Source of the DNA: Ophiura sarsii
Taxonomy: Eukaryota; Echinodermata; Ophiuroidea; Amphilepidida; Ophiuridae
Direction: 5' to 3'
Assembly (NCBI GenBank): GCA_035610835.1
Contig: CM069457.1
Coordinates: 43,317,319 to 43,381,318 of the forward strand
Length of the DNA stretch: 64,000 nt
Part shown: positions 4,988 to 63,871 of the stretch, piece by piece
Position numbering within the stretch: the stretch's first letter is position 1
Layout: the number at the start of each line of letters is the position of its first letter
Program-made: the position numbers and the translations under genes
Notes under the pieces: generated by a model
What the model was told of the DNA's origin: nothing
Seen by the model: the letters and a program-made list of their open reading frames with translations, nothing else
Databases searched by the model: none

Positions 4988-6018
4988 TAATCATTGACTC
5001 TTTATCATCGACATCTGTTTTTGGTCTTTTAAAATTTGGCACGGTCGGACATTTTTCACAGAAGTTCAAATTTCAATTGTGTCCGGCCTATTTTGACTGA
5101 TCGGAAATGCGACAATTTTCGACGATCGCATTTTGTATCAATATAACGTGTACTTGCCCCCCGGACTTGCCTCATAACTATCGGTGAAGGTTCAATTTCA
5201 ATCGTATTGACATGATCATGACGATTGATGCGACGAGCAAAACCACGGTTGTTTGACTGTCCGATTTATATATAATTAAAATTATGGGATAACAAAAAAT
5301 TGTATAGTGGCCCTTTTATGGTTTGACCTGATTTAGGTAGTGCTAATGAATAAGAGTGTACGGTGAAAATGTCAAGAAAATTGTTCCAGCCCTTTTTAAA
5401 TTATCGGCATTTTCTACTTGATACATATTTGTGGCAATGTTTTTGGAAATGTGGCCGATGAGGGCGCTATTATAGTAAATAATAATATTTAAAGGTCTAT
5501 TTCTCAGAACTGGCACCAACAAATGTTCTGAAATTTCTACAAAAGATGGCCAGTATATTCAGGTATTTGAATCAGTTAAAAACAGAACTGGGCCAGCAAG
5601 TTACGGTGTTCTCAGAATAAAACGGACACATTATGTGGGATCAAACAGCCGTGAAATACGAGTATGGGCATTACCAGCCAGTGATATGACGAGGCCACGT
5701 AATAATAATATAATGCCATGTAGATTCTGATTTCCCTAGAAACACCGGTCGAATAATCTATTCAGACGTTTTTAACCCCGGTTGTTAATGTCTCATTTCA
5801 AAGATAATTCAATAATAAGCAAATTTAGATAGTCATTTGATGTATCCAAACATAGCTACATACTTCCATATGATTTTCAAAGTGGGTCTATTCCGGGTCT
5901 ATTTTGGTAAAAAAATTACGACTTCAACAATTTCAACTGTGTCACACGTTATAGCTCTTTTAAAAGGAAAACCCGGTTTTATTTTTCCACTCAATTCCGT
6001 TGTCATGGTCAAAGAAAC

Positions 6019-6488
6019 TAAACTGCTCACAAAAAGTATCGAAACAGTTAGAAACGATCCAATATATAACGACTCGAAAGGATATGCATTAATCGAAGCA
6101 AATATCCAAGTGCATAATTTTGTTCTGCGTATTTTGACACCTCGATCGATAAGATACGATATTGCGGAGCGGAGTTATTGTCATTTCAATGGTCGTGGGT
6201 CCAATTTCAAAAGTGACAATCATCCTATAGAAAGAGGTTTGCATTACTGTTTAGAATGATCAGATTCGTGATTTTCAATAGGGATGAGTGTCACTTTTGA
6301 AACTGGACCCACGATCATTGAAATGACAATAACTCCGCTCCGCAACATCGTATCTCAACGATCGAGGTGTCAAAATACGCAGAACAAAATTATGCACTTG
6401 GTTATTTGCTTCGATTAATGCATACCTTTTCGAGCCGTTATATGTTGGATCATTTCTAAGTGTTTCGATACTTTTTGTGAGCAGTTTA
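6019..6488. mobile_element. Foldback MITE family F1, copy 1
   Basis: It begins TAAACTGCTCACAAAAAGTA and ends with the exact reverse complement. The arms continue to pair for about 200 bases, so the element is almost one long hairpin. A second copy lies at 21108-21581. The 140-aa open frame at 5837-6259 runs into the left arm and is not a gene. Confidence 0.75.
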
Positions 6489-6734
6489 GTATAAACACAT
6501 TTATATAGTCAGTTAGTCAGTTGATTTATCCAAACGTGGACACGTAGCATAGCAAGTGGTATAAATTCACGATTATCAACTTTCAACTCTGTTACACGTG
6601 TGGGATCATTTTAAAATGAATATCCGGTTTAATTTTGTTAATCTAAATTCCGTCTGATTAAATTGAATATATGGGTTGCATTTTTTACACAATGCCCAGG
6701 ATACAATGCCCCTTGTTTCGAATGTGGTAGCATC

Positions 6735-12183: not shown

Positions 12184-12257
12184 ACCGCCGTGGCGCAATT
12201 GGTTAGTGCGTTCGACTGTTAACCGAAAGGTTGGTGGTTCGAGTCAACCCGGGGGCG
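12184..12257 (+). tRNA. tRNA-Asn(GTT)-like sequence, probably a pseudogene
   Basis: The sequence has GTGGCGCAATTGGTTAGTGC (D arm and A box), CTGTTAA (anticodon GTT) and GGTTCGAGTC (B box). Mismatches occur in the acceptor stem (A1-C72, G4-G69), at the base of the anticodon loop (A-C) and in the T stem (G-A). This suggests a decayed gene or SINE head rather than a working tRNA. Confidence 0.55.
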
Positions 12258-18334: not shown

Positions 18335-18341
18335 TATAAAA
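18335..18341 (+). promoter_or_regulatory. TATA box of gene A
   Basis: TATAAAA lies 43 bases before the gene A start codon, so transcription would begin near 18365. An out-of-frame ATG at 18364 would be at or just upstream of the cap. A sharp TATA promoter would suit an inducible gene, but no induction sites were recognised nearby. Confidence 0.5.
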
Positions 18342-18383: not shown

Positions 18384-21300
18384 ATGGCCACTAACGAAGT
18401 AAGTGCGATTTGATACAATTATGAAAAAACTCAGACAGAGTGCGCGATGTGTAAACCTCTTAAGATCAGTTCGGGAATTGTTGGTTACAGTTCCCAAACT
18501 ATATTTCATGTATTCCGTGATGTTATTGATGTTCACTCCAAATATAATAAATATCATATCGTTGGTGTCGACCCATAGTAAGCTCTCAACTAGTCTGCGT
18601 TTTAATTTAATTTTTTCGACAGACAATCATGACAATCAGCAATGTAAACAGATAAAAAGTATTTATGATGCGAGTGAGTAAGTAATACGCATAATGCAGC
18701 ATACGCAACAAACGGTTTGCACTTGTTTTTGCACGGGCATGTGTGGCGCAGTGGGTAGAGCACCGGACTCTTAATCTAAAGACTGTGGGTTCGAGTCCCG
18801 CTGTGGTCAACATGTTGTGCTCTTGAGTAAGGCACTTTACCGCAATTACTCCTCTCTACCCAGGTGTATTCAAATGGGTACCGGCATTCTTCAGTGCTGG
18901 GAAGGTAATAGACTCGCGGTGGAGGAGGTGTAGCGAGCCCCACACAGCAATATTATAAAAAAGGAGTGAGTCTAGCCCTATCGCTTTGAAAGCGAGATGG
19001 GCACTTCGCTCCTGGAATTACAGGATCGACCGCCTTTACCTTTACCTTATGCAGAACGCAATTCTGTTAAATTAGTAATTAGACTTATAATGAAGTTGGT
19101 AAGGCGTGATCAGGGTGGCTGTCATATGCTGAGGAAAATCTTAAGATTTGTCGAACATGACTCCGTTGCACGAGACGCACATGCAATCGGGTTCAATTCC
19201 CAGCTCCACACATTGGACCACTATATCGTCTTTGTTCCCAAAACGCGCATTATTTAAGCTCGACAGACAATAAATTAGATTTCTAGCAAGGCATACGCAA
19301 ATGCCACAATATATACCAATGCAAATTGAGGTGAAAGAACAATCCAACCTGACATCGTAGGCCTTATACATTTACGGAATTCCCAAGGTAACTACAGCAT
19401 TATCGAATACAAATATTGCGATAATTCAAAAGAATAGATGTTCAACACTAAACAATGATACATAGCGTCTTCAACAATTATTAATCACAATTCACTTAAA
19501 GGCATATTATGTGATGTTTTCCAGAGAGCGCCCTCTATTCATGATTTCTTTTAGAAAGTAGATTTTCTTGCAGATTTAAATTTCTGACCATAAATCGTAC
19601 ATACATTCCAAATTAGAGAGCGATACGATTCCTAATTACCTCAAAATCATGGTTTTAAAGTGAATTTAGACTATATTTAAATAAGTTGTCGGATATCCGA
19701 CAGTTTATTTTCACTCTAAAACCATGATTTTGAAGTAATTAAGAATCGTATCGCCCTGTAACTTGGAATGTATATCCGATTTATGATCAGAAATGTAAAT
19801 CTGCAAGAAAATCTGCTTTCAATTTTTTTTTTCGATGTTGAGGGCGTTCCATAGAAAGATCACATAATATACCTTTAACTTTATTACAGCCTTCGGTAGA
19901 AACAATACTCAACAATGTCTTTGTTCGTCATCCTACTCATGGCGAGGGCCACCTGGTACCATTTGGAATGTATATACAACCGGCAACCATACACATCGGT
20001 GATGTTATAGTCTCTGGACAAAACGTTGTTAGTAAAGAGGAAGGCGGCTTAGCTGACCAAGCCAAACTATTGTAAGTAAACAATTATCTCGCATATAGAG
20101 AAACATTGGATCATGATTATATCAATACACGGGTAATAAATTAGATAAAGGGTTCAACAAAAGAAAGTATACCACTTTGTTTATGTCATTTTGAGTAACT
20201 TTCAATTTGTTTTTGACCAAACAGGCTAGATAGGCATTTAGATGATTTTTCTAGGCATAATTTGATACCAAATTTGCCCCCTAACAACAAAGATAAACCA
20301 TGATTAGCACCATTTAAAGGAAAATATCCCATTTTCGAAAGTCGCATTTCCAATACACAGCACTAGAAGATTTGGTTAATCTGTCCATGTTCTTTCCATC
20401 CATTAACATTCCTTTACATCCAAATCCTCCACCCATGCATCAGTTTACATTTGAATTAGCCCGCGCATTGAGGGATATGCGCTGTGATCAGTTCGGGATA
20501 AATACGGCATGTGTATGTGTTAACAATTGGCCCTTTCTTCTCGTGCTGTATATTGGAAATGCGACTTTTGAAAATGGGATATTTTCCTTTAAATGGTGCT
20601 AATCATGGTTTATCTTTGTTGTTAGGGGGCAAATTTGGTATCAAATTATGCCTAAAAGATTCATCTAAATGCCTATCTAGCCTGTTTGGACAAGAATAAA
20701 TTGAAAGTTACTCAAAATGACATAAACAAAGTGGTATACTTTCTTTTGTTGAACCCTTTAGATGTAGTACCGCAGGACCATAACCAAAATCAAATCATTA
20801 TGTCATTCCCCTATTGATGTATACGACCATAGACGTAGCTACTCAAACCAAACAGGCTGGGTGGTCGTGTGAATAAAAACGCCGAGGAATACCGGGATTT
20901 CCATAAGGTCGGGAAGATGTCACAGATGTCAACGAGTATATTTATTATGGAAATGCCCCCCATAGTGATTCTGTGGCTTGTGACCGTGGATTGCTGGTTA
21001 CGGCTGTAAGTGTTGTGGGTGGTAGTTTGTGGATTGTGGATTGTGGATTGTGGAGTACGGATTGCGGATTAAGAGCTGTTGTGGATTGTGGGCCGTGTTT
21101 TGGGAAGTAAACTGCTCACAAAAAGTATCGAAACACTTAGAAATGATCCAATACATAACGGCTCGAAAGGGTATGCATTAATCGAAGCAAATAACCAAGT
21201 GCATAATTTTGTTTGCGTATTTTGATACCTCGATCGATGAGACACGATGTTGCGGAGCGGAGTTATTGTCATTTCAATGATCGTGGGTCCAGTTCCAAAA

Positions 21301-24300
21301 GTGACACTCTTCCCTATTGAAAAGCACGAATCTGATCATTCTAAACAGTAATGCAAACCTCTTTCTATAGGATGATTGTCACTTTTGAAACTGGACCCAC
21401 GACCATTGAAATGACAATAACTCCGCTCCGCAACATCGTATCTCATCGATCGAGGTATCAAAATACGCAGAACAAAATTATGCACTTGGTTATTTGCTTC
21501 GATTAATGCATACCCTTTCGAGCCGTTATATATTATATTGGATCATTTCTAAGTGTTTCGATACTTTTTGTGAGCAGTTTAGTTGTTGGTTGCGGATTAT
21601 GGGTTGTGGGTTTAGAACAGACAATGACAAAACTCGTCTTTAAATACGTGTGTTGCATTATGGGATTATACATGTTATGCTTGGTAACTTTTCCAAAACT
21701 GCCCAGGCTGTTTGTATTATTGTTACAGTTTGTAATTTATTTTTACGCAGAGTTGGTGATCTGTTGGTTGCTTTGGATGACGTATTCGTCGATCAAAAAT
21801 CGTTGGAAGACGTCCTCAATTTGTTCGAAACACTTCCTCCGAAATTCAGTATGGTAAGACAAATGGAGGGGTTGGAGAAAAATTCTGCCATGGGAAATAT
21901 TGTCTTGAAAATGATAACTACACCGTAAAAAGTCATGTAGAATTTACATGTAAAACACTGTAAAATGATGGGAATATGACAGTATTTTACCGTTTCTAAA
22001 AAAAACGGTCAAATATTGTATTTTTCACACTTGATTCTTTAAGCCATCGTTGACTAAAATGAAAAGTTGAGCTAGTGGCTTAAAACTTAACATTCTCAAC
22101 ATTAGCTAAAATATTGTCAATTTTTTGACCAAGTCCTAAATTTCATCAATGTTAATTTTACAGGGTTTTGTTGGCAGATTGGCTGCCAGCCTTTTACCGT
22201 TAATTTTACAATTGACCAAGTCCTAAATTTCATCATGTTAATTTGACCGGGGGTTTGTTGGCAGATTGGCTGCCAGCCTTTTAGGGACGCTCCATTAGAT
22301 ACTCGGGGGGGGGGGGGGGGGGGGGGGGGGGGCATGGAAGTTTAAAACAAAAAAACTTGCCCACTATCCAGGAAAAAAAAACAACTTTGCCCACCAACCA
22401 GGAAAAAAAAAAAAATGACCCACTGCTGAGTAAAAAAAAGAAAAAAGAAGATGACTCACCCAAAAGGCCCAACTCAATGTAAAGAAAACCATTAAAACCT
22501 AAAAAAAACAAAACTTTGCCGGCTTTGCTAAAAAAAAAAAAAACTTGCCGCCAAAGGCGGCCAAAACAAATCCGCCCGACCCCAACTTCCATACCCCCCC
22601 TGAAAATCAAATGGTGCGTCCCTTACCGTTAATTTTACAACATTTTCAACAAACGCCTGTAAATTTTACTTTGCATTGTAAAAAAGCAGTAAAATACTGT
22701 AAAATATACAGTATATTGTTTTTGTGTGAATTTTTACAGTAATTGGTTTAAGAAACTGTAACATTTTACAGTGTCCCGTTAAATTTGACAGCTATTTACT
22801 GTAATTTTTTACAGTACAATGTACATTTTACAGGGGTTTGTTGGCAGATTGGCTGCCAGCCTTTTTACCGTTAATTTTACAACATTTTTTTAACAGTGTA
22901 GTCCCAAGCTAATGTAGCAAGCAATGCTAATGAAACAAGTACGAACATCCTACGCATGACTTCAAAATGACGTCATAAACAATCCAACCACCCCTACAGT
23001 AGGACGAGGCTTAATATTGTTTTTAATATGTCTTGATAATTATACAGACTGTGATACGCCAAGATGAACCAGAGGCCGAGGGTGCTCCTAAATACACGGG
23101 TTTGAAAATCACAATAGAGTTGGGAGTGGGTAAGTACATTACAATTACATTAAATGTATATACAGAAAACCCAAGTAATTACATTAGAGCGATGTCGTAA
23201 CTTTCTGAATAAGTAAATAAAGGTAAGTTTAAACTTAATAAGACAATCGGAATCGGGAATTGAATCCGTTGAACAAAAGCAAATGGACGAATGTGTCAGT
23301 AGACACCTATCTCTCAATGTGATAACACGGAATCTGTGGTGCGCAAGAGGTTAGTTCGACCTAGGCTCCGATTGGTAACCGAACTTTTGTGAATTTGCAA
23401 TCATATGCGTAGGAAACAGTTGCGGCCATGAGGTTATGTGCTGTGAATTCATCGATGCCCCAACGAAACCCTCAATAGTCAATATGCTTTACTTGGTGTT
23501 TTTTTTTACAGATGAATCAAAGGAAGTAGTAGTGATCTCTAGCTCCTGCGAGAAAGTAGTTCTCTATCAGTACAACCAGACAGTAAAATCGGTGATGGTT
23601 TGGCAAGATTTGAACAACCTGACGAAATACATCAAAGCAAGAAGTAAAACCACTGTTGCCATGCAAACATGGCCTGGACAAAGATCAGGCCTGGACAAAG
23701 ATCAGTGTAAGCCTGCCCTCTGCGTCCACAAATATAAATTTAGTTTGTGTTTTAAAACATTTTAAAGCTTTTAGTCATGCATATTTTCGTATACTTCCTT
23801 CTTGAATCAAAACACTAAATGTCCTAGAAGTATAATACTTATTCCAGAAACTACCTTTCGACCAATGTTCTTTATAAAGGGGTACAACTTTGAAATTAAG
23901 GAATATCAATTAATGAAAATGCTAACACTTTGCATGCGGCTATTGGTTTTACCAATTACAAAACAGATTTTCAGAAACCGTTCCCAACTTTCATGGTCTA
24001 TTTCGAAAATGACTGATGTAATACTATGCCTGTGTGAACCCGTGACGATATCAAATGTGGTAATTAAATAAAATAATTTTGACATTTTTTAAACATTTTG
24101 TGACATTTTGGAATGTCGTCTGCAGACGCCTGCCGCGTGGGCAGTGTTAAGTTCATTCTAAAGGGAAAAGGGACAGCAAAACATGTATTACACTACACAA
24201 CATACGGTTACGTAATAGACTGATAAAACTTTCATTATTTAAAATTGAGAGCTTAGTATAACAACTCTCCAATTGCTACCGATAGTTATATACATGGAGC

Positions 24301-27300
24301 ATGCGGAGCATATAGACGAAAACTAAACGTAACACAAAGCAGCTATTGTACGATATTTTTGTTCTGATACACAATGATGTGAAAGGTAACTATAATAATA
24401 GCTCCCATGTGCTATATATTTATGTGATGATATTGTGCACCCTTTCAACCTTATGTCAGTCATATTGTAGGTATGACATAGAAATGTTACCATCCTATTT
24501 TCGGGTTTCCCCACCAATCAACGTTGCGAGGCTGAAGGAATTGAACAGTCACTACACGGTAGACCTAGTAAATATCTATTTCAAAACATCGTTAATAGCC
24601 ACTTTAAAATGTGAAACACAAACAAAATGTTATACTCCTTGGGGCTATGACATGTTTCAGACAACAATGATAATAATAACTAATATTGATGATAATGTCT
24701 CTTTCAGATCTTTTCGATTTATACGTATACAACGCAGTGTCTGGCGACACAACGGCCGTAGTCTTTTACAATAATAAGTACGGTGCATCAATCACTGTCA
24801 ATTACTATGGGGGAAAGGACAGCGCGATAGTTCTGAACCAGGTTAGTGTCTACACACTGACAAATTGAGTGTCATTTGACACCAACAGGGGTGTTACGAT
24901 TTGGGTCCTCAGGCGAACATCCAAAGGTGACAGGAAGACCCCTTAAAGTGTGCCATGACACCTATATTTGTTCTAGACACATTTGGATGTTCACTTGAGG
25001 ACCCATTTCTTCTGGTGTCAAATGACACTCATATAAGGCCTAGTTAATTTACTATTTTGGTCTACTATATTTATCTATTGTCTAGCCATTTCCTGTCCAT
25101 TGTCGCTTACCTTCTTAACACCACACATGCATAATGCATGATGTGTTATCTATTGATTTATTGTACATGTTTTGTTAGTTTACCTAGCAACATGGATCTG
25201 TGTTCTATATCTATACTGGCATTGTGCTATAATTACAGTGGTGGACTTGTCTAGTTCGTTATCTTATTTATAGTTCTTAACACTTTTGTTTTTATATTTT
25301 GTCCCTGATAAAGGGTGGTATATCCACTTGAAACGTCGTTTTTTGTTGTTACTTTATATCTTTGTTGTTTTATTGCACAGCAATTTGTATTGCTTGACCC
25401 AGTGCATTTCCGTGTGTTATTTTGTTGTTGTTATTTATATGTTTTATTGCGTTATTCTCCCGCGTTATTACCTGTTCCCTCACACTTGTTGGTATATGTT
25501 TCTTATACTCTTTGCACCTTCAGTGGTGTTAATCATTGTCCGAATTAAGTTTAAAAAACCTGGTTGCTGACAACCAAACTTGTGGTTGTCCGCCACAATT
25601 TGTAGTTGTCAGTATTGTATTGGTTTATTTGGTTTAATGGTTTAGCTTAATTAACTTAACTTAACTTAACGAAAGTTGTCTCACCGCAAATTGCAATGCC
25701 TAGCCCGTAATAAGACACGGATAGTCTTGATAATATTCACTATTGTATAACAACACAACGGCCATAACATTTTACAATGAAAAGTACCGTGCATCAATTC
25801 CTGTCAGTGAACGGCAAGATAGTTTTGGAGCCGGTAAGTGTCTATAGTAGAATCAGTTCCAAATTGGAGAGAAATATTCGGTTTTTATCTCTCCGATGGC
25901 CGTACGTGTGTGCTTTTGGCAGTACACATGCATGCTTATATCAAATCATTTGGTCATCATTCTGTGATTCCCTACACACCAACATCGGTAGTAGGCCTAT
26001 GCGTCGTTCTTAAAAATCACGCACTTTGAATCCCCCTGTAAAGAGTATAACATAATTACTCCTATATTTGTTTATTTAGAGGTTCTTCTTGGGCAAATTC
26101 TACAATTTCTGCTGTTGTTGTTTTATTCCAGACCAAAAAGCCTCACACATCTCTAGTATCACCGACCTACAATTTCTTTGCTGATAATTCTACGGGAACA
26201 ATGTTCGAGTTCGGCTTTGAATCCATTTTGACACCAAGTAAGACTTTATCGGCAGACAGTTCTTTCAATTATAAGGGTTCAACAAAAGAAAGTATACACT
26301 TTGTTTATGTCATTTTGAGTAACATTGAATTTTTGTTTTGACCAAACAGGCTAGATAGGCAAGACGAATCTTTTAGGCATCATTTGATACCAAATTTCCC
26401 CCCTAACAACAAAAATAAACTATGATTAGCACCATTTAAAGAAAATTGGTCACTTTTCAAAAGTCACATTTTCAACGCACGCAAGCCGCGAGAAAATGCT
26501 GTGCGTGACACTGTAAATGGCCGGGAATGAAATGGATATTGATCACACAGCGTGAGCGGGCTATTTGATTATGGACAGGTAACACGTGTTCTTTTCTTCC
26601 CGCGTAGTGTATTGAAAATGTGACTTTTGAAAAGTGACTAATTTTCTTTAAATGGTGCTAGTCACACTCTTAGAAGGTCAGGATCAAATATGAGACGAAA
26701 AGGATCAATTTTGATCCAGAAGCGGTATCACATATGAGCTTACCCTTTCCGGATCAAAGTGATCCGACAAGCAGGATCAAAAAGTTTGATCCGAAATGGG
26801 ATCAAATATTTCTGTCAAATGATACTGAAACGGATCAAAATACTGATCCTTAATCGGATGTACCTGTAGCTTATGATCCTACTCCAGGATCAAACTGAAT
26901 CAAAGAAAAAGTGAAAACATAGGGGGTCATCGGGTGACAGATTGTAAAAACAAGCATGCATGCAAGGGTCTTTCGGTGACACCGGGCCAAAAAAGGGGGG
27001 TATTTTTGATGGAGCCTGGTGTGAAACCTAATATTGATTGAGTGCCCCCACCCCCGGGTGCACACTGCAGACTATATATCGAGTGCAGTAAGCTTACTAC
27101 ATCGTGTAGGCCTAGTACATCGCAGTGATCGTGACATTTTGTGAGGAGCATTTTGACCGAAAATCGTACTGATGGCACTGGTCAGGTACAAGAAATTTGT
27201 TCACAAGAATAGAGCATGTTCAAACATAAAAAATAAAACTACTTTACCGACAAAATCATGTAACATTTTACAGATTAGACTGGATAACTTACCGCGGTAT

Positions 27301-30300
27301 TTCACCCTTGTTTCAATGTGGCGACCGAATTCAAAAGATCGTCTGCTTGTCGTCTATCGGTTTGCGAAAGAGTGACGTCAGTCAATTATTGACCAATGAA
27401 CTGTTTCATCGAATTGATCCGGAAATCAGATCAAAGTTGATCAAGGTGAATTTGATCCGTTTGTTGATATCTATCTGGAAACGGATCAAAACGATCCGAA
27501 AACGGATCAAAACGATCCGAAAATGATCCTTAAAGGATCAAAACAAAGTGAGCCGGAAATCTACTCATGTATTTGATCCTGACCTTCTAAGAGTGCATGC
27601 TTTAGTAAGGGGCCAGTATATAGACAGGATACATATATAGCGTTGTTACAAATTGTTGTTAAAATGGGCAGGCAGTTCGTTTAAGTAGTAGTAGAAGGGA
27701 CCAGCATCTAGACTCGACAGATATCTTGTTTATTAAAGGCACAGTAAGTGGTGTTGAAAATTTAAATGTTTAAAAATTTACTTCAGAATTCAAGATGAAC
27801 ATTAAAAATGGCCATTACTGTTGTTTCTACTAACAAAAACACAGCAAAACTTGATTAAAACAATATCATCGCTATTTATTGAAAAACGCCCTCTATGCAA
27901 ATATGGTTCACGTTATGTATCACGCGTACTGCAGGGGGATACTGTCGGACGTAAAATGCTCGTCCCGCGGGACGAGCATTTTTTGAATCGACGTTTTCTT
28001 GTACATAGAGGGCTGATTTTTCTTAATACTTATAGGTGTAAGTTCATACATGTAATATATTTACCCCGACTATGGGTTAAATAGTTCCAAACTATGGGTT
28101 AAATAGTTCCCAACTATGGATTAAATAGTGCACCCGGACCAAAGCTAATCAGGGCTAATCACCCGTATAGCTTGCCAGACCGGGCCAAAATAATTCTGGC
28201 ACCAAATTCGATTACGAAAACCACAATGAAAAAACCAAGTACTACAAACTCGAATGTAGCTGGGCGGCTGTCAACAAATGACTCTATGACGGGCCAGCGG
28301 GAACTCGGCACAACAGCACGAACTGTTGGTCCTGAGAAGCGTCGTCTATCTGCCTTCAAACCTCTTGTTGTATCTACATACAACGTGCGTACCCTATACC
28401 AACAAGGGAAGGTACACCAACTAGTTGTAGGCTGTGCAGATGCAGGTATAGACATCATTGGCATACAGGAACATCGCTTGATTACTTCCAAATACACTGA
28501 TGAGTTATGGTCTGATGGCAGAAAATGGGTCCTAATATATAGCTCAGCTACAAATCAGCGTCAGGGAGGTGTTGGTATTTTAGTGTCAAAATACAGACAC
28601 AGATACCTTCAGAGTGTAAATTCCATCAGCAACAGAATCATCACTGCCGCATTCCATGGTAATCCCAAACTTACCATTACGTCCATTTATGCTCCAACTG
28701 AAAGTGCTACTCCTGATGACAAAAATGAGTTCTACAACAACTTGGAGAACCATATTGAGCAGGTGAAAACTCACAACATCCACTTGATTTTGGGAGACTT
28801 TAATTCCCGAATTGGATTAGACAGCCACTCATCACACCCTGAGGTTATTGGACGAAACTGTTTCTATGACTTGACAAACGACAATGGAGAGAGGCTTGTG
28901 AGTATGTGCGAAGAATATAAACTCCGCCCAGCGCAGTCAAGATTCCCTCAACCCAGACGCCGTCTGTGGACATGGATGCACCCAGCCGGGTCTAAACATC
29001 AGCTCGACCACATCCTAATTAACAGCAAATGGACAAACTCCCTAAGGAACTGTAGAGCATACAACTCTGTGGAACTCGACTCAGACCACCGGATTGTCAG
29101 CATCAAGCTCGTGTGTAGCCTAAGATATACCAAAGGGAAACCCTGCACAATACCGAGGTTTGACTGGGAAAAGCTGCAAAATGCTGACACAAAAGAGCTA
29201 TTCCAGATTGAGCTGTCAAATAGATTCGAAATCCTCAAGTGCAACGATACATCCACATCAATAACGGAGAGATACGAACAGTTTGAGAAAGCAGTTTCGG
29301 AAGCAGCCGAAAAAGTTGTTGGAAAACTCAAACCTCATGGCAAGCCAACATGGGTTACGGACAAGACTATTCACCTAAAGTCTGAGAGGGACGTGGCAAA
29401 AAGACGTTACCTTGTCTCAAAGTCACGGCAATCCAGAGACAGATGGAAGAAGCTCAACACCTGTTTGAATGAGTCTTACAAGGCAGATGAATCGTCCATG
29501 CTCAATAAACAGATGGAAGATCTTCATCAGGCTGACCAGAAAGGTGACTATTCCACCACATGGAAAATCATCCATGATCTCTCTGGGAAAGATAGGAAGT
29601 CCAGCGTCAAGGTCAAGAAAAGAGATGGTACCACCCCAAAGAATGACAAAGACCTGCTTGCAGAATGGAGAAAGTATTTCAGCTCACTGCTAAACAATGA
29701 CAGTGGTCAAATCCCATCTGACCTACCATCACCTGCTACTCAGGACCTGCCCATCAACATTGATCCTCCCACACTTGAGGAAACGCAAGAAGCCATTAAT
29801 CAAATGAAACCCAAGAAGGCTGCAGGTCTTGACTGTGCAATCACAGCAGAAGCACGCCAAGATGGCGGTGACATATTGGTACAAGTTGTCCATGGGTTCT
29901 GCATGGAAGTTTACACCACCCTGAAACCACCCAACCAGTGGACCACCAGTGTTATTGTTCCTCTACCTAAGAAAGGGGACCTCTCTCTTATGACTAACTA
30001 TAGAGGAATATCTCTTCTGTCAACATGGTCAATTGCAGCTAAAGTATACAACAAGATCCTGCTCAACAGAATTAGAGATCATGTCGACCCCATCTTGAGG
30101 AATAACCAGGCTGGCTTTCGCCCTGGCAGAAGTTGTGCTCAGCAAATCCACATCCTGAGGAGAATCATGGAAGGGTTTAAAGACCAGCAGCTACCTCTCA
30201 CAGTCACATTCATAGACTTCAAGAAAGCCTTCGACTCCATAAACAGGAAAGTTATGTTTGCATTACTGCGACATTACGGAATCCCAAAAGCTGTAGTCGA

Positions 30301-32474
30301 CGCTATAGGTGTACTGTACAACAACTCCAGAAGTGCTGTGATGGTCGATGGCAGTATCTCTGATCCTTTCGCGGTCTCCACTGGAGTGCTACAGGGCGAT
30401 GTTCTGGCTCCATTCATATTTGTGATATTGGTAGACTACCTTTTGAAGAAGGCCACATCTGAACTTGACTCAGGAGTTGTGACACATCCACGTCGTTCGA
30501 GGCGTCATCCTGCCATTGTTCTCAACGACTTAGACTTTGCTGATGACATTGCCTTACTCGAGACAACAATTCCACGAGCCCAGACTCAGCTGACAGAAAC
30601 TGCTGCAGCAGCAAAAGACCTTGGCCTCTACATTAGCGTATCTAAAACAGAGTACATGACTGCCAACTGCAATCCTCACCCGACTCTTCAGGTCTATGGG
30701 GATCCCATCAACCATGTGACAGATTTCAGGTATCTTGGCTCTATGATGGCATCGGGTGCAAGTGATCTTAAAAGACGCAAGGCATTAGCATGGTGCGCTT
30801 TCTGGAAGTTAGAACGCCTCTGGAGGAGCCCTCAAATAGGTATCACAACATGAAATTATTCAATACCACCTGTGTGACTATCTTACTGTATGGATGTGAA
30901 TCCTGGGTGATATCCCATGATATGGAATGCAAAATAAATGCCTTCGCTACCTCTTGCTACAGGATAATGCTAAACATCAAGCGCATGGATCATGTCCCAA
31001 ACACCACAATTTATGACATGACCAAGGCAGAGCCTCTTATCCACCGTGTAAAGCGCCGCCAGCTGAGATTCCTTGGCCATATACTCCGTCTCCCTGATGA
31101 AGAGCCTGCTAAAAAGTATGCCACATACGCACCAACACATGGCCGAAGGAAACCTGGTCGTCCCTGCACATCATATCTTACATATATACAACTCTTACTA
31201 GGGGACAATGAAGGCATGATTGAAGATCGACATATTGTCACTCTTGCTCAAAACCGTCGTGCATGGAAGAAACTTGTGGTCGCCTGCTCCGCAGCCGAAG
31301 GATGATGATGATGATATTGATGACATGTAATACAATTATAAAAATATACTAATCCCAGTTTTTATCATAATTGATGGCGCATCCTCCAACACATCTCTTA
31401 GTGCCCCTTTAACGGAATTGTCGGGCTTAAACTTTTGCATGTTTATGGAGGCGATTGGCTATACAGTCCTCAAAATATGTAACTGACCAGGTAATAAATA
31501 TACTCTCAACTCCAAAACTATAACTCCTACGTAAAAATATTAGATAATAAAGTTGTAAGGAAATTTCTTTTTTTTAATTTGAGATATTACACGTGAAGAT
31601 TGAATGAATATTTACTCAGTTATGTGCCCTAAACCAAAACAAAGTCCGGTTTTCATTTTAACATTTCGATCGTCTACACGCAGCCTCGGCCTAGTAACAT
31701 GCAGATTATTGATTAACTGGTAGCGACAACTCACTGCTCGATAGTAAGACGGGGATTGGGGATGCATCAATTAATCAATGCAACCCATACACATACCTGT
31801 CACACTGTCCTGCGTGTTCAAACCCCAAGTGTTAAAATGTTAACTGCACTTTGTTCTACCCTTTTCAATGTCGCGGTCTTAATTATTAACTGATCTTAAT
31901 GAAAATGTATCAAGTTAAAGAGGAGAAATTTCTTTACAGCTTTATTGTATAATATTTTTATGCAGAAGCTATAGTTTTGGAGTTACGAGTATATTTATTA
32001 CCTGGTCAGTTACTTATTTTGAGGTTTAGGGTTTAGGACACATAACTGAGTAAAACCAGCTACCAGTTAAACAAAGGACTGTACATGTAGTGTTAGTACT
32101 TTTATTGAAATATACATGATATTGAAATTGCCAGTTTCATCTGAATGACTTGGGGACAGTTTTTGATAGTAAAACATTAAGTACGAGAATGTAAGGGCTC
32201 TTGCTCAAACACAATATTGTTAAAAAAGGGTCGGTGATTAAAACACGTCACTGAATGTGTACTTGCAAGAGCCCTACATTTAAATGATACAATATTAAAG
32301 GAGCAATTATTACTTTCGCACTCACGCTATCTATGATATGTTTGTATTATTTGTTCAGATGGGTACATGACTACTAGCACCAATGACTTATTATTTCTAA
32401 AAAAGACGGATAAAAACGCCAAAGATCTTCCTATGGCAAGCCGATATTTTATGACGATGGTACCCCGGAAATGA
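18384..32474 (+). CDS. Gene A: leaderless IL-1-family-like beta-trefoil protein, 8 exons, 310 aa
   Basis: Exons: 18384-18398, 19890-20071, 21751-21853, 23048-23129, 23512-23706, 24708-24841, 26132-26237 and 32359-32474 (stop TGA). All introns are GT-AG and every phase joins (0,2,0,1,1,0,1), giving 310 residues. The start has a strong Kozak context (ACCATGG) 43 bases after a TATAAAA box. No signal peptide or membrane segment is seen. Residues 1-128 look like a prodomain. Residues about 130-310 alternate short beta-strand-like stretches. Residues 262-286 read FEFGFES, then P272, Y275, T278 and L286, the spacing of the interleukin-1 family signature as I recall it (F-x-S-x3-P-x2-Y-x2-T-x7-L), with conservative changes at three positions. 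The segment DLYVY..VVFYNNKYGASITV fits the central trefoil repeat, and the C-terminus ends YFMTMV like the last IL-1 strand. IL-1 ligands are secreted without a leader and signal through IL-1R/TIR receptors; that role here is inference. Another beta-trefoil family (for example FGF) is possible. Gene structure is secure; the family call is moderate. Confidence 0.75.
18733..19045 (+). mobile_element. tRNA-Lys-derived SINE
   Basis: The head resembles tRNA-Lys (anticodon CTT in CTCTTAA, with A box TGTGGCGCAGTGGGTAGAGC and B box GGGTTCGAGTC). The body contains CTTGAGTAAGGCACTTTACC and CAGGTGTATTCAAATGGGTA, and the tail is (CCTTTA)n. Mismatches in the anticodon stem show that the head is not a working tRNA. 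It lies in intron 1 of gene A. Confidence 0.8.
19496..19878. mobile_element. Foldback MITE family F4 abutting gene A exon 2
   Basis: It starts TTAAAGGCATATTATGTGAT and ends ATCACATAATATACCTTTAA, bounded by TTAA on both sides. The arms pair through GATTTTCTTGCAGATTTA and AAAATCATGGTTTTA around a GTCGGATATCCGAC core. It ends only 11 bases before exon 2, so it borders the splice acceptor. A second copy with a nested insert lies at 54547-55536. Confidence 0.8.
20146..20760. mobile_element. Foldback MITE family F5, copy 1
   Basis: The ends TAAAGGGTTCAACAAAAGAA and its reverse complement lead into arms that pair over about 250 bases (GTCATTTTGAGTAACTTTCAA, CCCCCTAACAACAAAGATAA). It lies in intron 2 of gene A. 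A truncated copy is at 26272-26664. Confidence 0.75.
21108..21581. mobile_element. Foldback MITE family F1, copy 2
   Basis: Both ends are identical to those of the 6019-6488 element and the interior is closely similar. It lies in intron 2 of gene A, within a GGATTGTGGATTGTGG microsatellite (about 21000-21100 and 21582-21610) that it seems to have split. Confidence 0.75.
21918..22901. mobile_element. Non-autonomous element with CTACACYGT ends, 0.98 kb
   Basis: The left end CTACACCGTAAAAAG and the right end TTTTTTTAACAGTGTAG are inverted. Inside are three copies of GTTGGCAGATTGGCTGCCAG, several TTACCGTTAATTTTACA blocks and a 28-base G run (22305-22332) followed by an A-rich stretch. It lies in intron 3 of gene A. 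Confidence 0.55.
23720..24700. other. Gene A intron 5, nothing recognised
   Basis: AT-rich intronic sequence between exons 5 and 6. Open frames of 89 and 142 aa have no family features; the longer one stays open past the exon 6 acceptor in another frame. No repeat was delimited. Confidence 0.4.
24867..25031. mobile_element. Short foldback element, 165 bp
   Basis: GAGTGTCATTTGACACC and GGTGTCAAATGACACTC form inverted ends, followed by pairing GGGTCCTCAGGCGAACATCC and GGATGTTCACTTGAGGACCC. It lies 25 bases after gene A exon 6. Confidence 0.7.
25741..25845 (+). pseudogene. Decayed duplicate of gene A exon 6
   Basis: The sequence around ACAACGGCCATAACATTTTA aligns with exon 6 (24708-24841) from ACAACGGCC through the 3' splice donor (GTAAGTGTCTA here, GTTAGTGTCTA in exon 6). 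It has lost about 15 bases near its 5' side and about 14 near the donor, so its frame is broken, and no acceptor AG is visible at the expected place. It lies 0.9 kb after the true exon, in the same orientation, inside intron 6. It is probably a dead tandem exon duplication. Confidence 0.6.
26272..26664. mobile_element. Foldback MITE family F5, copy 2, truncated
   Basis: The left arm TAAGGGTTCAACAAAAGAAA and following bases match 20146 onward. The right arm stops after AAATGGTGCTAGTCA, where the GATC-rich element at 26665 begins. The rest of the right arm is not found after that element. Confidence 0.65.
26665..27595. mobile_element. GATC-rich foldback element F6, 0.93 kb
   Basis: The ends CACTCTTAGAAGGTCAGGAT and the exact reverse complement lead into subterminal regions packed with GGATCAAAA and TTTGATCC motifs (more than 20 in all). 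Such subterminal motif clusters are typical of cut-and-paste transposons. No transposase ORF was found. It lies in intron 7 of gene A. Confidence 0.7.
28058..31322 (+). mobile_element. RTE-like non-LTR retrotransposon, 3.27 kb
   Basis: It is flanked by a 10-base target duplication ACATGTAATA (28048-28057 and 31323-31332). The empty site exists in the MITE copy at 43.7 kb. The 5' end has three tandem units around ACTATGGGTTAAATAGTTCC. The 3' end is a short GATGAT repeat without poly(A), as in RTE-clade LINEs. It lies in the last intron of gene A in the sense orientation. Confidence 0.85.
28172..31308 (+). pseudogene. LINE endonuclease-reverse transcriptase, one frameshift
   Basis: The main frame (28172-30853, 893 codons) has an apurinic endonuclease domain: STYNVRTL at about 68-75, IIGIQEHR with E100, LILGDFNSRIG with D209 and N211, QLDHIL near 277, and SDH at 304-306. 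The reverse transcriptase follows: FIDFKKAFDS near 679, GVLQGD near 738 and FADD near 788. The frame breaks near 30835, and the C-terminal part continues in another frame to the TGA... stop region at 31308 (KLFNTTCVTILLYGCESW, then RRRQLRFLGHILR-type and GRRKPGRP motifs). A single small indel explains the break, so the copy is recent but probably inactive. Its product copies its own RNA by target-primed reverse transcription. Confidence 0.85.
31462..32025. mobile_element. Foldback MITE family F2, copy 2
   Basis: ACAGTCCTCAAAATATGTAA and its approximate reverse complement at the right end pair together with ACCAGGTAATAAATATACTC. The interior keeps the CTACACGCAGCC block of the family. It sits 0.33 kb before gene A exon 8. 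Confidence 0.7.
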
Positions 32475-32568: not shown

Positions 32569-32574
32569 AATAAA
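32569..32574 (+). promoter_or_regulatory. Candidate poly(A) signal of gene A
   Basis: AATAAA lies 95 bases after the gene A stop codon. It is part of the left terminal inverted repeat of a mariner-like element (starts 32555, CGAGGGGCATTCAATAAATA), so the transposon may supply the 3' end of the transcript. Confidence 0.45.
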
Positions 32575-53522: not shown

Positions 53523-56500
53523 ACACTTACGTGAAATTCACGAGGTGACCGACTGGGAAAAAAAATTGGGGCAACCTTTTACGAAAATTTACTACCGGGA
53601 CGACATACTTCTGCCTGACATGGTCAAAAAGGGCCGCTTTAATAATTTTGCCACGGCCGCTTTCAGGTCCCAGTCCGCCCCTGCCCATACCCCTTACCAC
53701 TGTAGTTATTTTAATTCATATTTCTGTGGGTTCCCTGTATAATACGTTTCCCGTATGTCAATTTTGTTCTTTTTAATCGTACAGAAATCAATGAGTACTA
53801 CCGCTACCAACCAGAAAACCAAGCCAGGCTTCTCAATGACCTACTTATAAACTACCATAAAGGAGTCCCTCCTACCCATGAAGGGCCGATTAATGTGGAA
53901 ATGAACTTCGCCCTGACAAACTTTGATTTTATTGTAAGTTCATGAATTGTTTTGATTAAAAAAGGCATACTTCTCTATGTAAAACCTTGTGAATGTTAGG
54001 AACGTGAATATTTTTTTGTTGTTGCCAGGGTTATAATAATTAAAGCTTTCTTGGCATAGCTACATCTCAGACATTTTATTTAACAATAGTTTCACCACAG
54101 AGAGTTTCACCTGAAGCGTTCGCAACAGACGAACTGGTTATTCACTTGATGGCAGACTATTCATAATTACATCAGTACTAGGCATGTTTGTACTTATCTT
54201 AATGCATTTCTCATGGTGATTCCAAATATATGAAATTCAATATTGTTGATATTTTTGAAACATTTTGAAATCAGAACTGTCGTCTGCAGACAACTGACGC
54301 GTGGAAAGCGTGAATTTGAGAATGATGGCTCCAAAAATAAGATTTCACATTTATTGATTTGACTCTGGAGTAGCCTCGTTTAAAATGTCAATAGGCTAAC
54401 TTGACGGTATAAAATAAATGCTTTTTTATACTCCTCTTTGCAGGATGAGGCAAATTTCCTAGCAAGTGTCCACGGATGGTCTTTTCAGGTAAGCTTGGCT
54501 ACCTGCATGGGTGACTCCGTTTGAAATTCACTCCCTGTGTGGAACATTAAAGGTATATTATGTGATCTTTTACAGGAACGCCCTCAACATCGAAAAAATA
54601 TTGAAAGCAGATTTTCTTGCAGATTTACATTTCTGATCATAAATCGTACATACACCTAGCACATAAAGTCCCTGACCAAACAGGTGCTTTGAGGTTGGCT
54701 AATTCAAAATATATGATCGGTACCAAAAATCTGAGATATACAATAAATGAGCAAATTTCTTCTCCGCAGTTTGATACCTCATTCAACAAAATCGAATGGA
54801 TACTTTTAAAGTTATGTCGATTTCAATGACCGCGCATGCAACAGAAAAGTTGCACTAGGTATAGGAAATCATTGATTTGTGTGTGATTTACCACTGTCAC
54901 TGAAAACTTACAGCTTATCAGCTAAGACTTGTATTCTTCACAGCCAGATACACCCTTTGTCCCGCACATTGCGGTTATCACTAAAGACCCATTCATCTGT
55001 CTCGTTCAGATAGCACACAGTTATGACAGTAATCCCACACAAATCAATGATTCCTATACCTAGTGCAACTTTTCTGTTGCATGCGCGGTCATTGAAATCG
55101 ACATAACTTTAAAAGTATCTATTCGATTTTGTTGAATGAGGTATCAAACTGCGGAGAAGAAATTTTGCTCATTTAATGTATATATCTGATTTTTGGTACC
55201 GATCATATATTTTGAATAAATCAACCTCAAAGCACCTGGTCAGGGACTTTATGTGCTAGGTGTACATTCCAAGTTACAGGGCGATACGATTCTTAATTAC
55301 TTCAAAATCATGGTTTTAGAGTGACAATAAACTGTCGGATATCCGACAACTTATTTTACTCTAGTCTAAATTCACTCTAACCATGATTTTGCGGTAATTG
55401 GGAATCGTATCCCTCTGTAACTTGGAATGTATGTACGATTTATGATCAGAAATGTAAATCTGCAAGAAAATCTACTTTCTAAAAAAAATCATGAATAGAG
55501 GGCGCTCCTGGAAAAGATCACATAATATGCCTTTAAGGCCATGTCTTCCACAGGGGGTGGTGTATGGATTTCAAATGGAATAGCAGTAAATACAGTTTGC
55601 ACGATACAGATGCAGTCGTGTGGAAAAAGATGTTACCTAATTGGATATCTGAAACCTGAATTTTGTGATTTGTTGACTAAAAGTGAGGGTAATATAAATC
55701 ACAAGTAATGTAATAACACCGTTTTCTCATATGCTTATTGTACGCGCCTTATCGACCCATCTTCTTAGAAGTACACATTTAAACAAAAATAAAATGTAAA
55801 AAATGACTCCCGAACAGTTGGTGCATAGGTAACCCTTGTCTAAACGATCAAAAATGAAAGGGTTACAATAATATAATTAGTCAATTTTGACTATTTATTA
55901 GTCAATTTTGACTATTTATTAGGCAATTTTGACCCTGTAATTAGTCCATTTTTATCCTTAAATGAGGGTCAAATATGCACCAATTGCACTGGAATCATTT
56001 TTTACTACACATTTTGTAAGTGTGTAAGGCGTTGGGTTGACAACTGAAGCAACGTGTATTCATTTTATTAGTAACACATCTGTGTTAAGGCTGTATTTTA
56101 CAAGGTTCCAGAAGTTAAGTGTATAACATAATATGGCCGCTATTACATATAGTGACTTTTTATCACTAAGCTTCTCAACAAAACGACCACAATCTGCAAT
56201 AGCTGTTCCGATCCGAGTTACATTTAGTTTATACCAGTTACTCTTTCTATTTCCAGACTTGGACTGATCCTCGTTTACGTTGGGATACCGAATCGTATAA
56301 TGGAACCAAAAACGTCATAATGGAATTGGACGACATTTGGACTCCAGATATAGAGCTATACAACAGGTAAAATAATAATGATAACTGTGATGCTGCTGCT
56401 AACGGCAATACGCAAATCTAAAAGGCGAAAAAATTGCATTTTAGGTCCCAAATAACTGGATACCAGTATCTTTCAATACTGGAACATAAAGGTTGCCAGT

Positions 56501-58333
56501 GTCGGTCAATACCGGTACGATTTTACTGTTCCACTATCGGTCAATACTGGAACACCAAACTAGTATCGACCGATACTTGAACATTTAGTATCGGGGGATA
56601 CTGGTACACGTAATACTAGTGAGATTTGTCCCAGTATTAACGATACTGGTACATAATTATGTTCTAGTATCGCCCGACACTGGAACATTTTATATGTGCC
56701 AGTATCGGCCGATACTGGAACACTTACTTTGTACCAGTGTCGGACGATATTAATACAGTCCAGAATCTGTGACTTAAAATACACTTTTCCAAACAAAGAC
56801 GCATTGCTTGCCAGATGACAACAGCAATAGTAGATTTAGCATCAATATTCCGAAAAACCTGAACAAAATACCACACTATCATCTAAAATGTAACTTATCA
56901 GGTAATTAATGCGCTTGTTACTCTTAAAAGCATTTCTCCTACTTGAAATTATCAAATTGTTTGGAATGTCAATAATGGTTTGATATCAAAGAAGTTACAG
57001 TACCAAAAATGAGATTTCCATTTACGCATTTTACTTTTCTACACGCGGACTCAATTAACGGGTAAATTATTGATTACTGGCACCGGTACCTAATTCACCG
57101 GTCGATGCCCAGGTTGGATAGTCGGCCGGCTGCTTTGTTCCGATGGATCAGCACACTATTTACCTGTCATACTCTCCCCCGTGTTGAAAATAAAAATGTA
57201 AAAATAAAAATCGTACTTTACCTTACCGTTAGAGTTATCAGCATATGTTATTAATTGGTATAAGGTTACTTTTTTATGACTTTCTATTATGGTATTGCCA
57301 TCTTAGACAGCTTTGTTTTATACTAACAATTGTTCATTATATTAATTGTAGGTCTATATTTGTGATTAAAAGGGTTTTACTTATGCGTTCCTTTCAGCGT
57401 AAGCGTCACCGAAACCACAGATACCAAGGCAATTGTCTCCAACGAGGGCGTAGTCAGCAGAGTACCCGTGTACCTAATCACCTTCAAGTGTGCCATGAAC
57501 TTATACCATTTTCCATATGATAAACAAAGATGTTCGCTCAAGTTCGGTTCCTGGCATCATCATTCCGAGACAATCAATCTTACGGCATCGCAATATGCGG
57601 ATTTGTCAATGTCCCACGATTCCGCAGATTTCATGTTGAAAGATATGACGGTTAAAAGACACGCGATTAAATATGACTGTTGCCCTGAAACCTACATTGA
57701 TGTGACTTACTATATCGATGTAAATCGTAAAACCGGTGCCTACGGTGCCAAACTTGTCATGCCATCTGTTCTTACTGGATTCCTGGTGTTAGCAACGTTT
57801 CTTTTGCCAACAGGATCTCACGAGAAGATCACCTTGTGTTCAATTCTATTCCTGTGTCTTCTTCTCCTGTTGACATACCTACATGACATCATCCCAAACA
57901 GTGGAAAAACCATCCTAGGAGAGTACCTTGCATTTACACTTGCTATTGATTTCATTGCTACCATAATAGCAGTGGTGGCTTACAAATTAGACGCGAGTTC
58001 ATCGACAGGGAAGGCAGGTCCACCAATCGTCAATGGTATTGAACTACAAAATGATGATCAGGATCTCAGAGTCAAAAGGCCTAAAAATGTAAGTAAATTG
58101 GCATTGCAACAACATTATGTTACGCAAAATCTGTTACTGTAGTGTTTCGTAATACGTAAACGTGACCGAAGCGTCATAACGATCATTGCATTCATTATTT
58201 CGGACTTATAATTATATCTTGTTTTGTTTTACAGGGCGCTAAGGAATGGCTTGGATACCTGGACATCGGCTGTTTCCTTTTGTTTTCCGTTGTGTATATC
58301 ATTGGATTGGCCATCCTCCTCGGACGTCTTTAG
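45828..58333 (+). CDS. Gene B: nicotinic acetylcholine receptor-like (alpha-type) Cys-loop subunit, 6 exons, 384 aa
   Basis: Exons: 45828-45888, 53785-53933, 54444-54488, 56257-56366, 57398-58088 and 58235-58333 (TAG). All introns are GT-AG and in phase; the 45- and 110-bp exons are sizes typical of nAChR genes. Residues 1-20 are a signal peptide (MAVTMKVVILMSALVYFTSA). The ligand-binding domain shows loop D W87, loop A PDIELY (Y120), the Cys loop C153-x13-C167, loop B GSW (W174) and loop C Y214-x-C216-C217-x3-Y221. The vicinal cysteines mark an alpha-type subunit. M1 is about 238-259. M2 starts at E264-K265, the cation-selective position, with Leu at 9' (L274). M3 is about 296-317 and M4 about 360-384, with no tail. 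The M3-M4 loop is only about 40 residues against more than 100 in usual nAChRs, so the protein is short. It would form a pentameric, probably acetylcholine-gated cation channel in the plasma membrane. Fast neuronal or non-neuronal use cannot be told. Confidence 0.92.
46422..46716. mobile_element. MITE with CAGGCCCGTAAGA ends, 295 bp
   Basis: CAGGCCCGTAAGA on the left and TCTTACGGGCCTG on the right are perfect inverted repeats. G-rich and C-rich runs lie just inside the ends. CAGG termini suggest the hAT type; no clean target duplication was found. Confidence 0.6.
46790..49350. other. Gene B intron 1, left part
   Basis: Segment 46930-47405 pairs with the left duplication (2885-3085 and 4988-5245). 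The rest is AT-rich with a 20-base C run (47949-47968) and a pyrimidine-rich stretch (48240-48370). No exon was seen. Confidence 0.45.
48872..49231. mobile_element. MITE with TATAGATG ends, copy 3
   Basis: TATAGATGAGGTGACCG on the left and CGGTCACACCATCTATA on the right. The whole interior is closely similar to copy 1 at 10843-11203. It has no counterpart in the left duplication at the matching place, so it probably inserted after the duplication. Confidence 0.75.
49535..51472. mobile_element. hAT-like foldback element, 1.94 kb, carrying a minisatellite
   Basis: CAGGGACAATCGAATGGAGG on the left and CCTCCATTCGATTTTCCCTG on the right are inverted, flanked by the direct repeat ATTACAC. Further inverted pairs (GCGTGTTGCGGG near 49620 and 51410; GTAGGGTACAAATG near 50057 and 51250) run inward. 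The left duplication lacks it. No transposase ORF was found. Confidence 0.65.
50317..50476. repeat. 17-bp minisatellite, 9.4 copies
   Basis: Nine units of ATGTCACCTGTAATTTC (one with GTGATTTC) are followed by a partial unit. They lie inside the hAT-like foldback element. Confidence 0.9.
51970..53280. other. Gene B intron 1, right part
   Basis: AT-rich intronic sequence without recognised exons. A short repeat (CACTAGTTTAGAAAATAATC and CACAAATTCAGAAATTAATC, each followed by TATGTTTG) occurs near 52950 and 53155. Confidence 0.4.
53291..53683. mobile_element. hAT-like MITE with internal minisatellite
   Basis: CAGGGGCGGACTGG on the left and CCAGTCCGCCCCTG (with one mismatch) on the right are flanked by CCCCTACC and CCCATACC, a near-match 8-base duplication. 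Inside are about six units of GTGCGAAATTTTGTGACC and a 30-base C run. The left duplication (positions 80-115) has the flanks joined without it. Confidence 0.7.
54547..55536. mobile_element. Foldback MITE family F4, copy 2, with a nested insert
   Basis: TTAAAGGTATATTATGTGAT on the left and ATCACATAATATGCCTTTAA on the right match the element at 19496-19878. It is split by the insert at 54653-55262. It lies in intron 3 of gene B. Confidence 0.8.
54653..55262. mobile_element. TA-inserted foldback element nested in F4, 610 bp
   Basis: CACCTAGCACATAAAGTCCC and the exact reverse complement form the ends, and the arms pair over about 250 bases. Comparison with the unsplit F4 copy shows that TA was duplicated on insertion, the Tc1/mariner mode. 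Confidence 0.8.
56438..56785. mobile_element. Palindromic-array element F3, copy 2
   Basis: CATTTTAGGTCCCAAATAAC on the left and CAGAATCTGTGACTTAAAAT on the right enclose about nine CCAGTATCGNNCGATACTGG-like palindromes. It lies in intron 4 of gene B, 71 bases after exon 4. Confidence 0.75.
56878..57284. mobile_element. Foldback MITE family F2, copy 3 (diverged)
   Basis: TGTAACTTATCAGGTAATTAATGCG on the left pairs with TTATTAATTGGTATAAGGTTACT on the right. The interior keeps TCTACACGCGGACTC and GTCGGCCGGCTG. It ends about 110 bases before gene B exon 5. Confidence 0.6.
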
Positions 58334-58807
58334 CTCATAATTACGCTCGTATGTTACTGGTTCCATCAATCCTGGGCCCCACACTCCGAATTATGAAACT
58401 TCCATAGGCTTTGTGTTATGATCAATGTGATCAGTGGCAGGAGGCCTGATCAGTGGTTCATTACCAAGTTTGTGCGAGCCAGTTGACCTGTCAATTCTAA
58501 TGTGCACTACGCCAGTGATTACACCCTATTATTCCTCCTGCCGTTGATGGGGTAAGAATCATTATCCCGCGTAACGAAAGCGAGGAATTGCAATTACACG
58601 CGTAGTGATGTAGGCCCGCGTAAACGGCGACAACAACATATTTTAGTCTTATATATTGTAGAGTTACATTTTGTAGAGTTAGAAAGGGGTCATTGGATTG
58701 TATTATAGTAAAAATTAACATACGACAAATAACACCACCAGTGAGGGTCACAGTATTGGAAACAGGACACTTCGCCTCTCGTAAATATCGCCTTTTGTAA
58801 AGGACCT

Positions 58808-63799: not shown

Positions 63800-63871
63800 G
63801 CACGGTTAGTCTAGTGGAAAGGAACTCGCTTAAGGAGCGAGATGTTGTGGGTTCGAGTCCCATTAGGAGCA
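63800..63871 (+). tRNA. tRNA-like sequence (anticodon AAG), probably a pseudogene
   Basis: A D arm (TTAGTCTAGTGG), a perfect anticodon stem (CTCGC/GCGAG) around TTAAGGA, a B box (GGTTCGAGTCC) and a T-run terminator are present. The acceptor stem pairs poorly, and the variable arm is short although AAG would be leucine, which needs a long one. It lies in intron 1 of gene C or beyond it. Confidence 0.45.

Follow-up and report, generated by a model that had tools for sequence, protein, structure and literature searches.

Gene A of the brittle star Ophiura sarsii, a member of an expanded PDZ gene family with a probable interleukin-1-like C-terminal half

The question raised by this locus is whether an invertebrate genome carries a ligand gene of the interleukin-1 (IL-1) family. 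According to excerpts of a 2022 review (PMC9020223), IL-1 gene orthologues have not been found beyond vertebrates, although IL-1R-like receptors have, and molecular characterisation of invertebrate IL-1-like activities is missing; its reference list includes an IL-1-like activity of starfish described in 1986. Another paper of 2022, used in excerpt like all sources cited here, describes invertebrates and jawless vertebrates as lacking an IL-1 gene (PMC9382457). Among the matches listed in a literature that is thin on subscription papers, neither an IL-1 ligand nor nIL-1F, the PDZ-bearing IL-1 family member of fish, was reported from an invertebrate.

Gene model and PDZ half

The window, i.e., the whole stretch of 64,000 nucleotides analysed (C17:43317319-43381318), contains gene A, whose eight exons have AG/GT borders throughout and encode 310 amino acids, terminating at position 32474. 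The intron phases are, in order, 0, II, 0, I, I, 0, I. The eight-exon model with fitting intron phases, proposed previously, was borne out by splicing. The features of the locus are as follows:

18335..18340, + strand: TATA-box-like TATAAA from a pattern scan, 49 bases 5' of the start codon, function presumed
18384..18398, + strand: exon 1 (MATNE), hydrophobic leader absent by inspection
19890..20071, + strand: exon 2, initial part of the PDZ half, 20 genome matches including gene A
21751..21853, + strand: exon 3, PDZ core, PDZ_6 match on residues 55-104
23048..23129, + strand: exon 4, end of the PDZ domain and linker into the C-terminal domain
23512..23706, + strand: exon 5, first predicted trefoil strands and insert, phase-I entry; putative strand assignment
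24708..24841, + strand: exon 6, predicted strands 4-7; flanking phase-I and phase-0 introns resemble the IL-1 family
25734..25805, + strand: incomplete repeat of exon 6 within intron 6 (54% identity across 24 amino acids by tblastn)
26132..26237, + strand: exon 7, predicted strands 8-9, FEFGFESILTP
32359..32474, + strand: exon 8, predicted strands 10-12 and stop; phase-I entry by an intron absent from the vertebrate IL-1beta series
32569..32574, + strand: AATAAA polyadenylation-like signal from a pattern scan, function presumed

The 20 kb past exon 7 contain 1056 AG sites, of which seven give a tail of 30-60 amino acids and have a pyrimidine-rich tract upstream. The acceptor at 32359 is the second of these seven along the sequence and the top of the five scored by the profile; without the tail and pyrimidine filter, it ranks 49th among 469 scored. 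The choice of exon 8 is better supported by the paralogs described below than by this ranking: of the 14 other loci, 10 have an exon-8 match located 3' of exon 7, with weak scores in two (21.5 and 31.5) and with exons sitting in separately fetched stretches in two of the ten, and the plain genome search gave seven exon-8 matches beyond gene A (E 0.006 to 4.4). No signal peptide was seen in the gene A product by inspection of MATNEPSVETILNNVF, in agreement with the earlier description. Upstream of the gene, no NF-kappaB-like sites were found within 2 kb.

The partial exon 6 copy has counterparts in some paralogs, in which close exon-6 matches are paired (L040, C14:18854414/18854682, and C6:6722286/6731631); tandem alternative copies of exon 6 may once have exchanged the predicted strands 4-7.

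Other elements were also detected in the window. The last intron of gene A holds a LINE (28103-31305) with endonuclease and reverse-transcriptase domains and an interrupted frame. Copies of an inverted-repeat element with the peptide-like reading EANNQVHNFVLRILTPRS or a close one lie at 5819-6259, 6275-6508, and 21120-21590, the last within intron 2. Rfam tRNA matches were obtained at 12184-12257, 18737-18809, and 63800-63871, of which ARAGORN calls only the first (tRNA-Asn); the match in intron 1 of gene A (18737-18809) may represent the head of a tRNA-derived SINE. At 53780-58334 lies a gene for a ligand-gated channel of the nicotinic-receptor-like type that has a Cys-Cys pair; its closest PDB relatives are vertebrate nicotinic subunits, which are distant (169.5 bits at best). 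The GC content per 2-kb bin ranges between 34% and 45%, with 25 out of 32 bins at 35-39%.

The N-terminal half of the product contains a PDZ domain that was overlooked by the first-pass annotation, the account of which, directed at the C-terminal half, stands in part. PDZ_6 matched residues 55-104 with 28.4 bits when residues 1-116 were used as query, which is above the cut-off of 27, and with 25.6 bits, just under the cut-off, when the whole protein was used. Six of eight family members gave a PDZ match at E<=10.

Related copies in the brittle star genome

To place gene A within its own genome, 1,573,662,873 bases on 748 contigs were searched, yielding 92 exon matches at E<=10, of which 20 (gene A included) represent exon 2. 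The matches are concentrated on C14 between 18.6 and 19.25 Mb, and further ones lie on C2, C6, C16, C11, C15, C9, and C14 near 6.2 Mb. Gene A is one member among about twenty related copies and does not stand alone.

Seven of the 14 other loci (C2, C16, C14_19239, C14_19203, C14_19132, C6b, and C14_18651) allow splicing of exons 2-8 with the frames open. In these models, the phases were imposed by the script, and the AG/GT borders, the exon order, and the similarity are findings; C14_18651 has an exon 8 just above the threshold of 20 (score 21.5), and three separate stretches were combined for C6b. At C6a, exons 2-8 were placed by profile, and the remaining six loci were incomplete within the stretches fetched. 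More divergent loci gave exons 2-4 (L052) or exon 2 only (L053). At L040 (C14:19167000-19176900), neither exon 3 nor exon 4 was detected, and the exon 8 match is partial; this locus is possibly a decaying copy.

The seven spliced proteins share between 53% and 80% identity with gene A. The FES triplet is retained in six of them and reads FEC in the remaining one, and P272 of gene A is replaced by alanine in all seven. Compared with these paralogs, dN of the C-terminal half (0.18-0.48) exceeds that of the PDZ half (0.03-0.23) by a factor of 2.1 to 5.4. The dN/dS values are 0.48-0.96 for the C-terminal half, 0.70-1.07 for exons 7-8, and 0.39-1.21 for the PDZ half, where both values above 1 rest on dS of 0.03 and 0.06. 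A conserved PDZ half joined to a fast-changing ligand half would fit the pattern of an immune ligand.

The C-terminal half against IL-1 and FGF profiles

The C-terminal half had previously attracted attention by the spacing F266-x-S268-x3-P272-x2-Y275-x2-T278-x7-L286 and by an FEFGFES block, and both are present in gene A. The strict PROSITE IL-1 pattern is one that we take to contain P-x(2), which a published printing of it lacks. From the strict signature, gene A departs by I for [ASLV], M for [LI], and T for [SCA], with the spacing kept. Since the motif led to the finding, its significance is inflated.

At E<=10, the Pfam IL1 model (PF00340) matched neither gene A nor its pieces nor any of eight family members; it did not match the genome either, in a search whose controls likewise matched nowhere. 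With a profile of ten human IL-1 family proteins, residues 113-310 of gene A obtained 8.4 bits, and 4 of 20,000 shuffles scored as well; the corresponding counts were 18 of 20,000 for residues 130-310 and 17 of 20,000 for the whole protein. When chicken IL-1beta was added (11 sequences), gene A obtained 9.4 bits (equalled by 1 of 10,000 shuffles), and when IL-18 and IL-33 were removed, 6.2 bits (15 of 10,000). As controls, left-out members scored 7.2 bits (IL-33, 16 of 10,000), 24.0 bits (IL-18), and 41.2 bits (IL-1A, as for IL-18 0 of 10,000). In a background of 63 E. coli ORFs, the best score was 1.1 bits on the 11-sequence profile and 4.6 bits, compared to 6.2 bits for gene A, on the profile without IL-18 and IL-33.

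The signal came mostly from the motif: the post-motif part of gene A alone was equalled by 37 of 20,000 shuffles, and the pre-motif part alone was at chance (3485 of 20,000). Tests of intron-anchored blocks were weak for exon 6 (252 of 5000) and negative for exon 7 (4656 of 5000). In hhalign, gene A alone against the IL-1 profile gave P between 0.03 and 0.08 and probabilities of 0.7-1.7%, and residues 113-310 obtained a score of 18.5, equalled by 9 of 400 shuffles; the left-out IL-33 control gave P 0.012 and 3.6%.

A profile of the family, built from gene A and eight paralogs, aligned with the 11-sequence IL-1 profile over 103 columns (score 21.4, P 0.013, probability only 3.4%), and 1 of 300 column shuffles matched this score. 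The aligned columns run from strand 4 to strand 11, the strands following our own assignment. By column shuffling, the segment of the family profile ahead of the motif was matched on its own by 11 of 300, and the post-motif part by 1 of 300. In the reverse direction, the family HMM was run on 80 targets (11 IL-1, 6 FGF, and 63 E. coli ORFs) and ranked IL1A (7.0), IL1B (5.5), and IL18 (5.5) as the top three, followed by a next score of 1.2; IL33, IL1RN, IL36A, and IL1F10 were at background.

These values also bear on the alternative that the C-terminal half is a different type of beta-trefoil (FGF-like, lectin-like, or actin-binding), with only the fold in common with IL-1. Trefoils do cross-match, as FGF2 (15.8 bits) and FGF4 (11.1 bits) both scored above gene A on the IL-1 profile, with four other FGFs at 2.7 bits or below; the IL-1 profile score therefore marks a trefoil-like pattern and cannot single out IL-1. 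In addition, a 2018 study considers multiple origins of trefoil cytokines possible (PMC5861070, in excerpt), which bears on claims made from fold alone. On the FGF profile, the only other trefoil profile used, gene A scored at chance (4709 of 10,000 shuffles) and the family profile gave P 0.33, whereby an assignment of gene A to the FGFs was ruled out. With intron phases of the IL-1 type and a PDZ domain as partner, both fitting nIL-1F, another trefoil type appears highly improbable.

Neither gene A nor its C-terminal half found anything at E<=10 among 5.8 billion proteins (including nr and UniRef entries), a search that needs shared 5-residue words and hence excludes close relatives, not all relatives. 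Nine weak PDB matches to gene A by sequence included some PDZ proteins and no trefoil cytokines. An alignment query with gene A first and six IL-1 family members gave 249 matches; among the best 120, the named ones were mammalian IL-1 family members, as far as read.

Intron positions and comparison with known systems

The coding introns of vertebrate IL-1beta have the phases II, 0, I, I, 0, and the last three exons hold the twelve strands (PMC4880838, in excerpt). The phases of gene A contain this series plus one more intron at each end, which is expected within a random seven-phase string with P 0.014. Introns 4-6 (I, I, 0) correspond to those around the IL-1 trefoil exons, with one further phase-I intron downstream. 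In IL1RN, a donor variant at c.318+2 places a phase-0 intron directly behind codon 106, and the skip of that exon, giving p.Glu69Glyfs, places another intron within codon 69, which we deduce to be phase I (PMC11026629, in excerpt). IL36RN has a phase-I donor after c.115 (PMC5258799, in excerpt), and its exon-3 skip p.Arg10Argfs indicates that the neighbouring intron on the 5' side has a phase other than I, which is a mismatch at that place. Measured from the F of FES, the introns lie at -84 and -218 nt in gene A, -87 and -200 in IL1RN, and -215 in IL36RN, with equal phases. Random placement of four introns reproduces both offsets with P 0.0013, the tolerances having been chosen after the values were seen. 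In the family-profile alignment, which is blind to introns, the members of both intron pairs are, as judged by eye, only some two or three residues apart, and this register is also obtained when the motif is left out of the profile.

These results have to be weighed against a rival view, in which gene A encodes a PDZ protein particular to its lineage, and the beta-rich C-terminal domain is unrelated to IL-1 and owes its likeness to the IL-1 signature to chance. The unmatched PF00340 in all eight members, the low hhalign probabilities, the chance-level pre-motif part of gene A, and the motif as the prompt of the finding would suit such a resemblance. The introns, the nIL-1F architecture, and the register of the family alignment, all independent of the motif, agree in pointing to IL-1, and a chance resemblance is accordingly considered unlikely. 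The lines in favour of IL-1 homology (motif, intron phases and positions, nIL-1F-like architecture, and weak above-chance profile scores) agree with each other, each being moderate alone, and make IL-1 homology of the C-terminal half likely. Of the IL-1-like ligand proposed by the first-pass annotation, the motif, introns, PDZ-plus-IL-1 architecture, and weak profiles thus speak in favour, and the missing PF00340 match against. In our best reading, gene A is part of an echinoderm family of IL-1-like ligands that has diverged and expanded, and we give a probability of roughly 0.8 to its members combining a PDZ domain with a likely IL-1-family beta-trefoil that is homologous to the PDZ-bearing nIL-1F of fish.

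We infer a trefoil fold, release, a receptor, and an immune role for the gene A product. The precursor, which has no apparent signal peptide, would be synthesised in the cytosol and tethered or regulated by its PDZ half, and cell damage or proteolysis might release the C-terminal 170-180 residues. The released part could bind an Ig-TIR (IL-1R-like) receptor as an agonist or, alternatively, act as an antagonist, the role reported for nIL-1F of trout and grass carp. If the IL-1 reading is true, the echinoderm PDZ-IL-1 family would provide a candidate ligand for invertebrate IL-1R-like receptors and candidate genes for the starfish activity of 1986, fish nIL-1F would change from an oddity to the ancestral form, and the IL-1 family of immune signals would originate before vertebrates.

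A broader proposal, which we hold tentatively and at somewhat under even odds, is that the IL-1 superfamily descends as a whole from a PDZ-plus-IL-1 form that predates the echinoderm/vertebrate split. This form would have been kept by nIL-1F, expanded to about twenty fast-evolving ligands in the brittle star, and reduced in vertebrate IL-1 and IL-18 by loss or erosion of the PDZ domain; the phase II and 0 introns of the PDZ half would then survive in the IL-1 propeptide. The IL-1beta propeptide as a decayed PDZ domain was considered separately and rejected; it has no sequence similarity to the N-terminal half of gene A, and only the intron phases favour it.

Compared to vertebrate IL-1 genes, gene A resembles IL-1beta in the phases II, 0, I, I, 0 and in the distance from FES to the C-terminus (45 residues, and 42 in IL-1beta), and it resembles IL-1RN and IL-36RN in similarly spaced phase-I and phase-0 introns before FES. 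However, aligned identity to IL-1beta, IL-1RN, and IL-36RN is only 9-17%, IL-1beta has a propeptide where gene A has its PDZ domain, an insert of some 35 residues is predicted for gene A ahead of strand 4, and the signature P is lost in its paralogs. With the FGF family, gene A has the predicted fold in common, but not profile similarity.

The closest known system is nIL-1F, in which an IL-1 domain is combined with a PDZ domain, encoded by seven coding exons, and which occurs in teleosts, coelacanth, and elephant shark (PMC7144542, in excerpt). A signal peptide is absent from nIL-1Fm; in trout, expression induced by IL-1beta is inhibited by the 169 residues at the C-terminus of the protein, and work on grass carp nIL-1Fm indicated receptor competition (PMC4929537, in excerpt). 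That gene A is simply a known nIL-1F of a fish or another vertebrate, as its architecture might suggest, has next to no probability, given that the adjoining channel gene matches vertebrate nicotinic subunits only distantly and that the lumpfish nIL-1F has a recognised IL-1 domain, whereas gene A has no Pfam IL1 match. Gene A further differs by an intron within the signature, by about twenty copies, and by eight coding exons instead of seven, both genes being multi-exon. Of the nIL-1F-type layout, the PDZ domain is found in gene A, and the IL-1 domain is weakly supported by profiles. The two are likened by architecture, not by sequence: a PDZ domain and an IL-1 or IL-1-like part are united in one protein of similar length (352 amino acids in lumpfish, 310 in gene A), the cytokine part is C-terminal, and a signal peptide is neither present in the fish protein nor seen in gene A.
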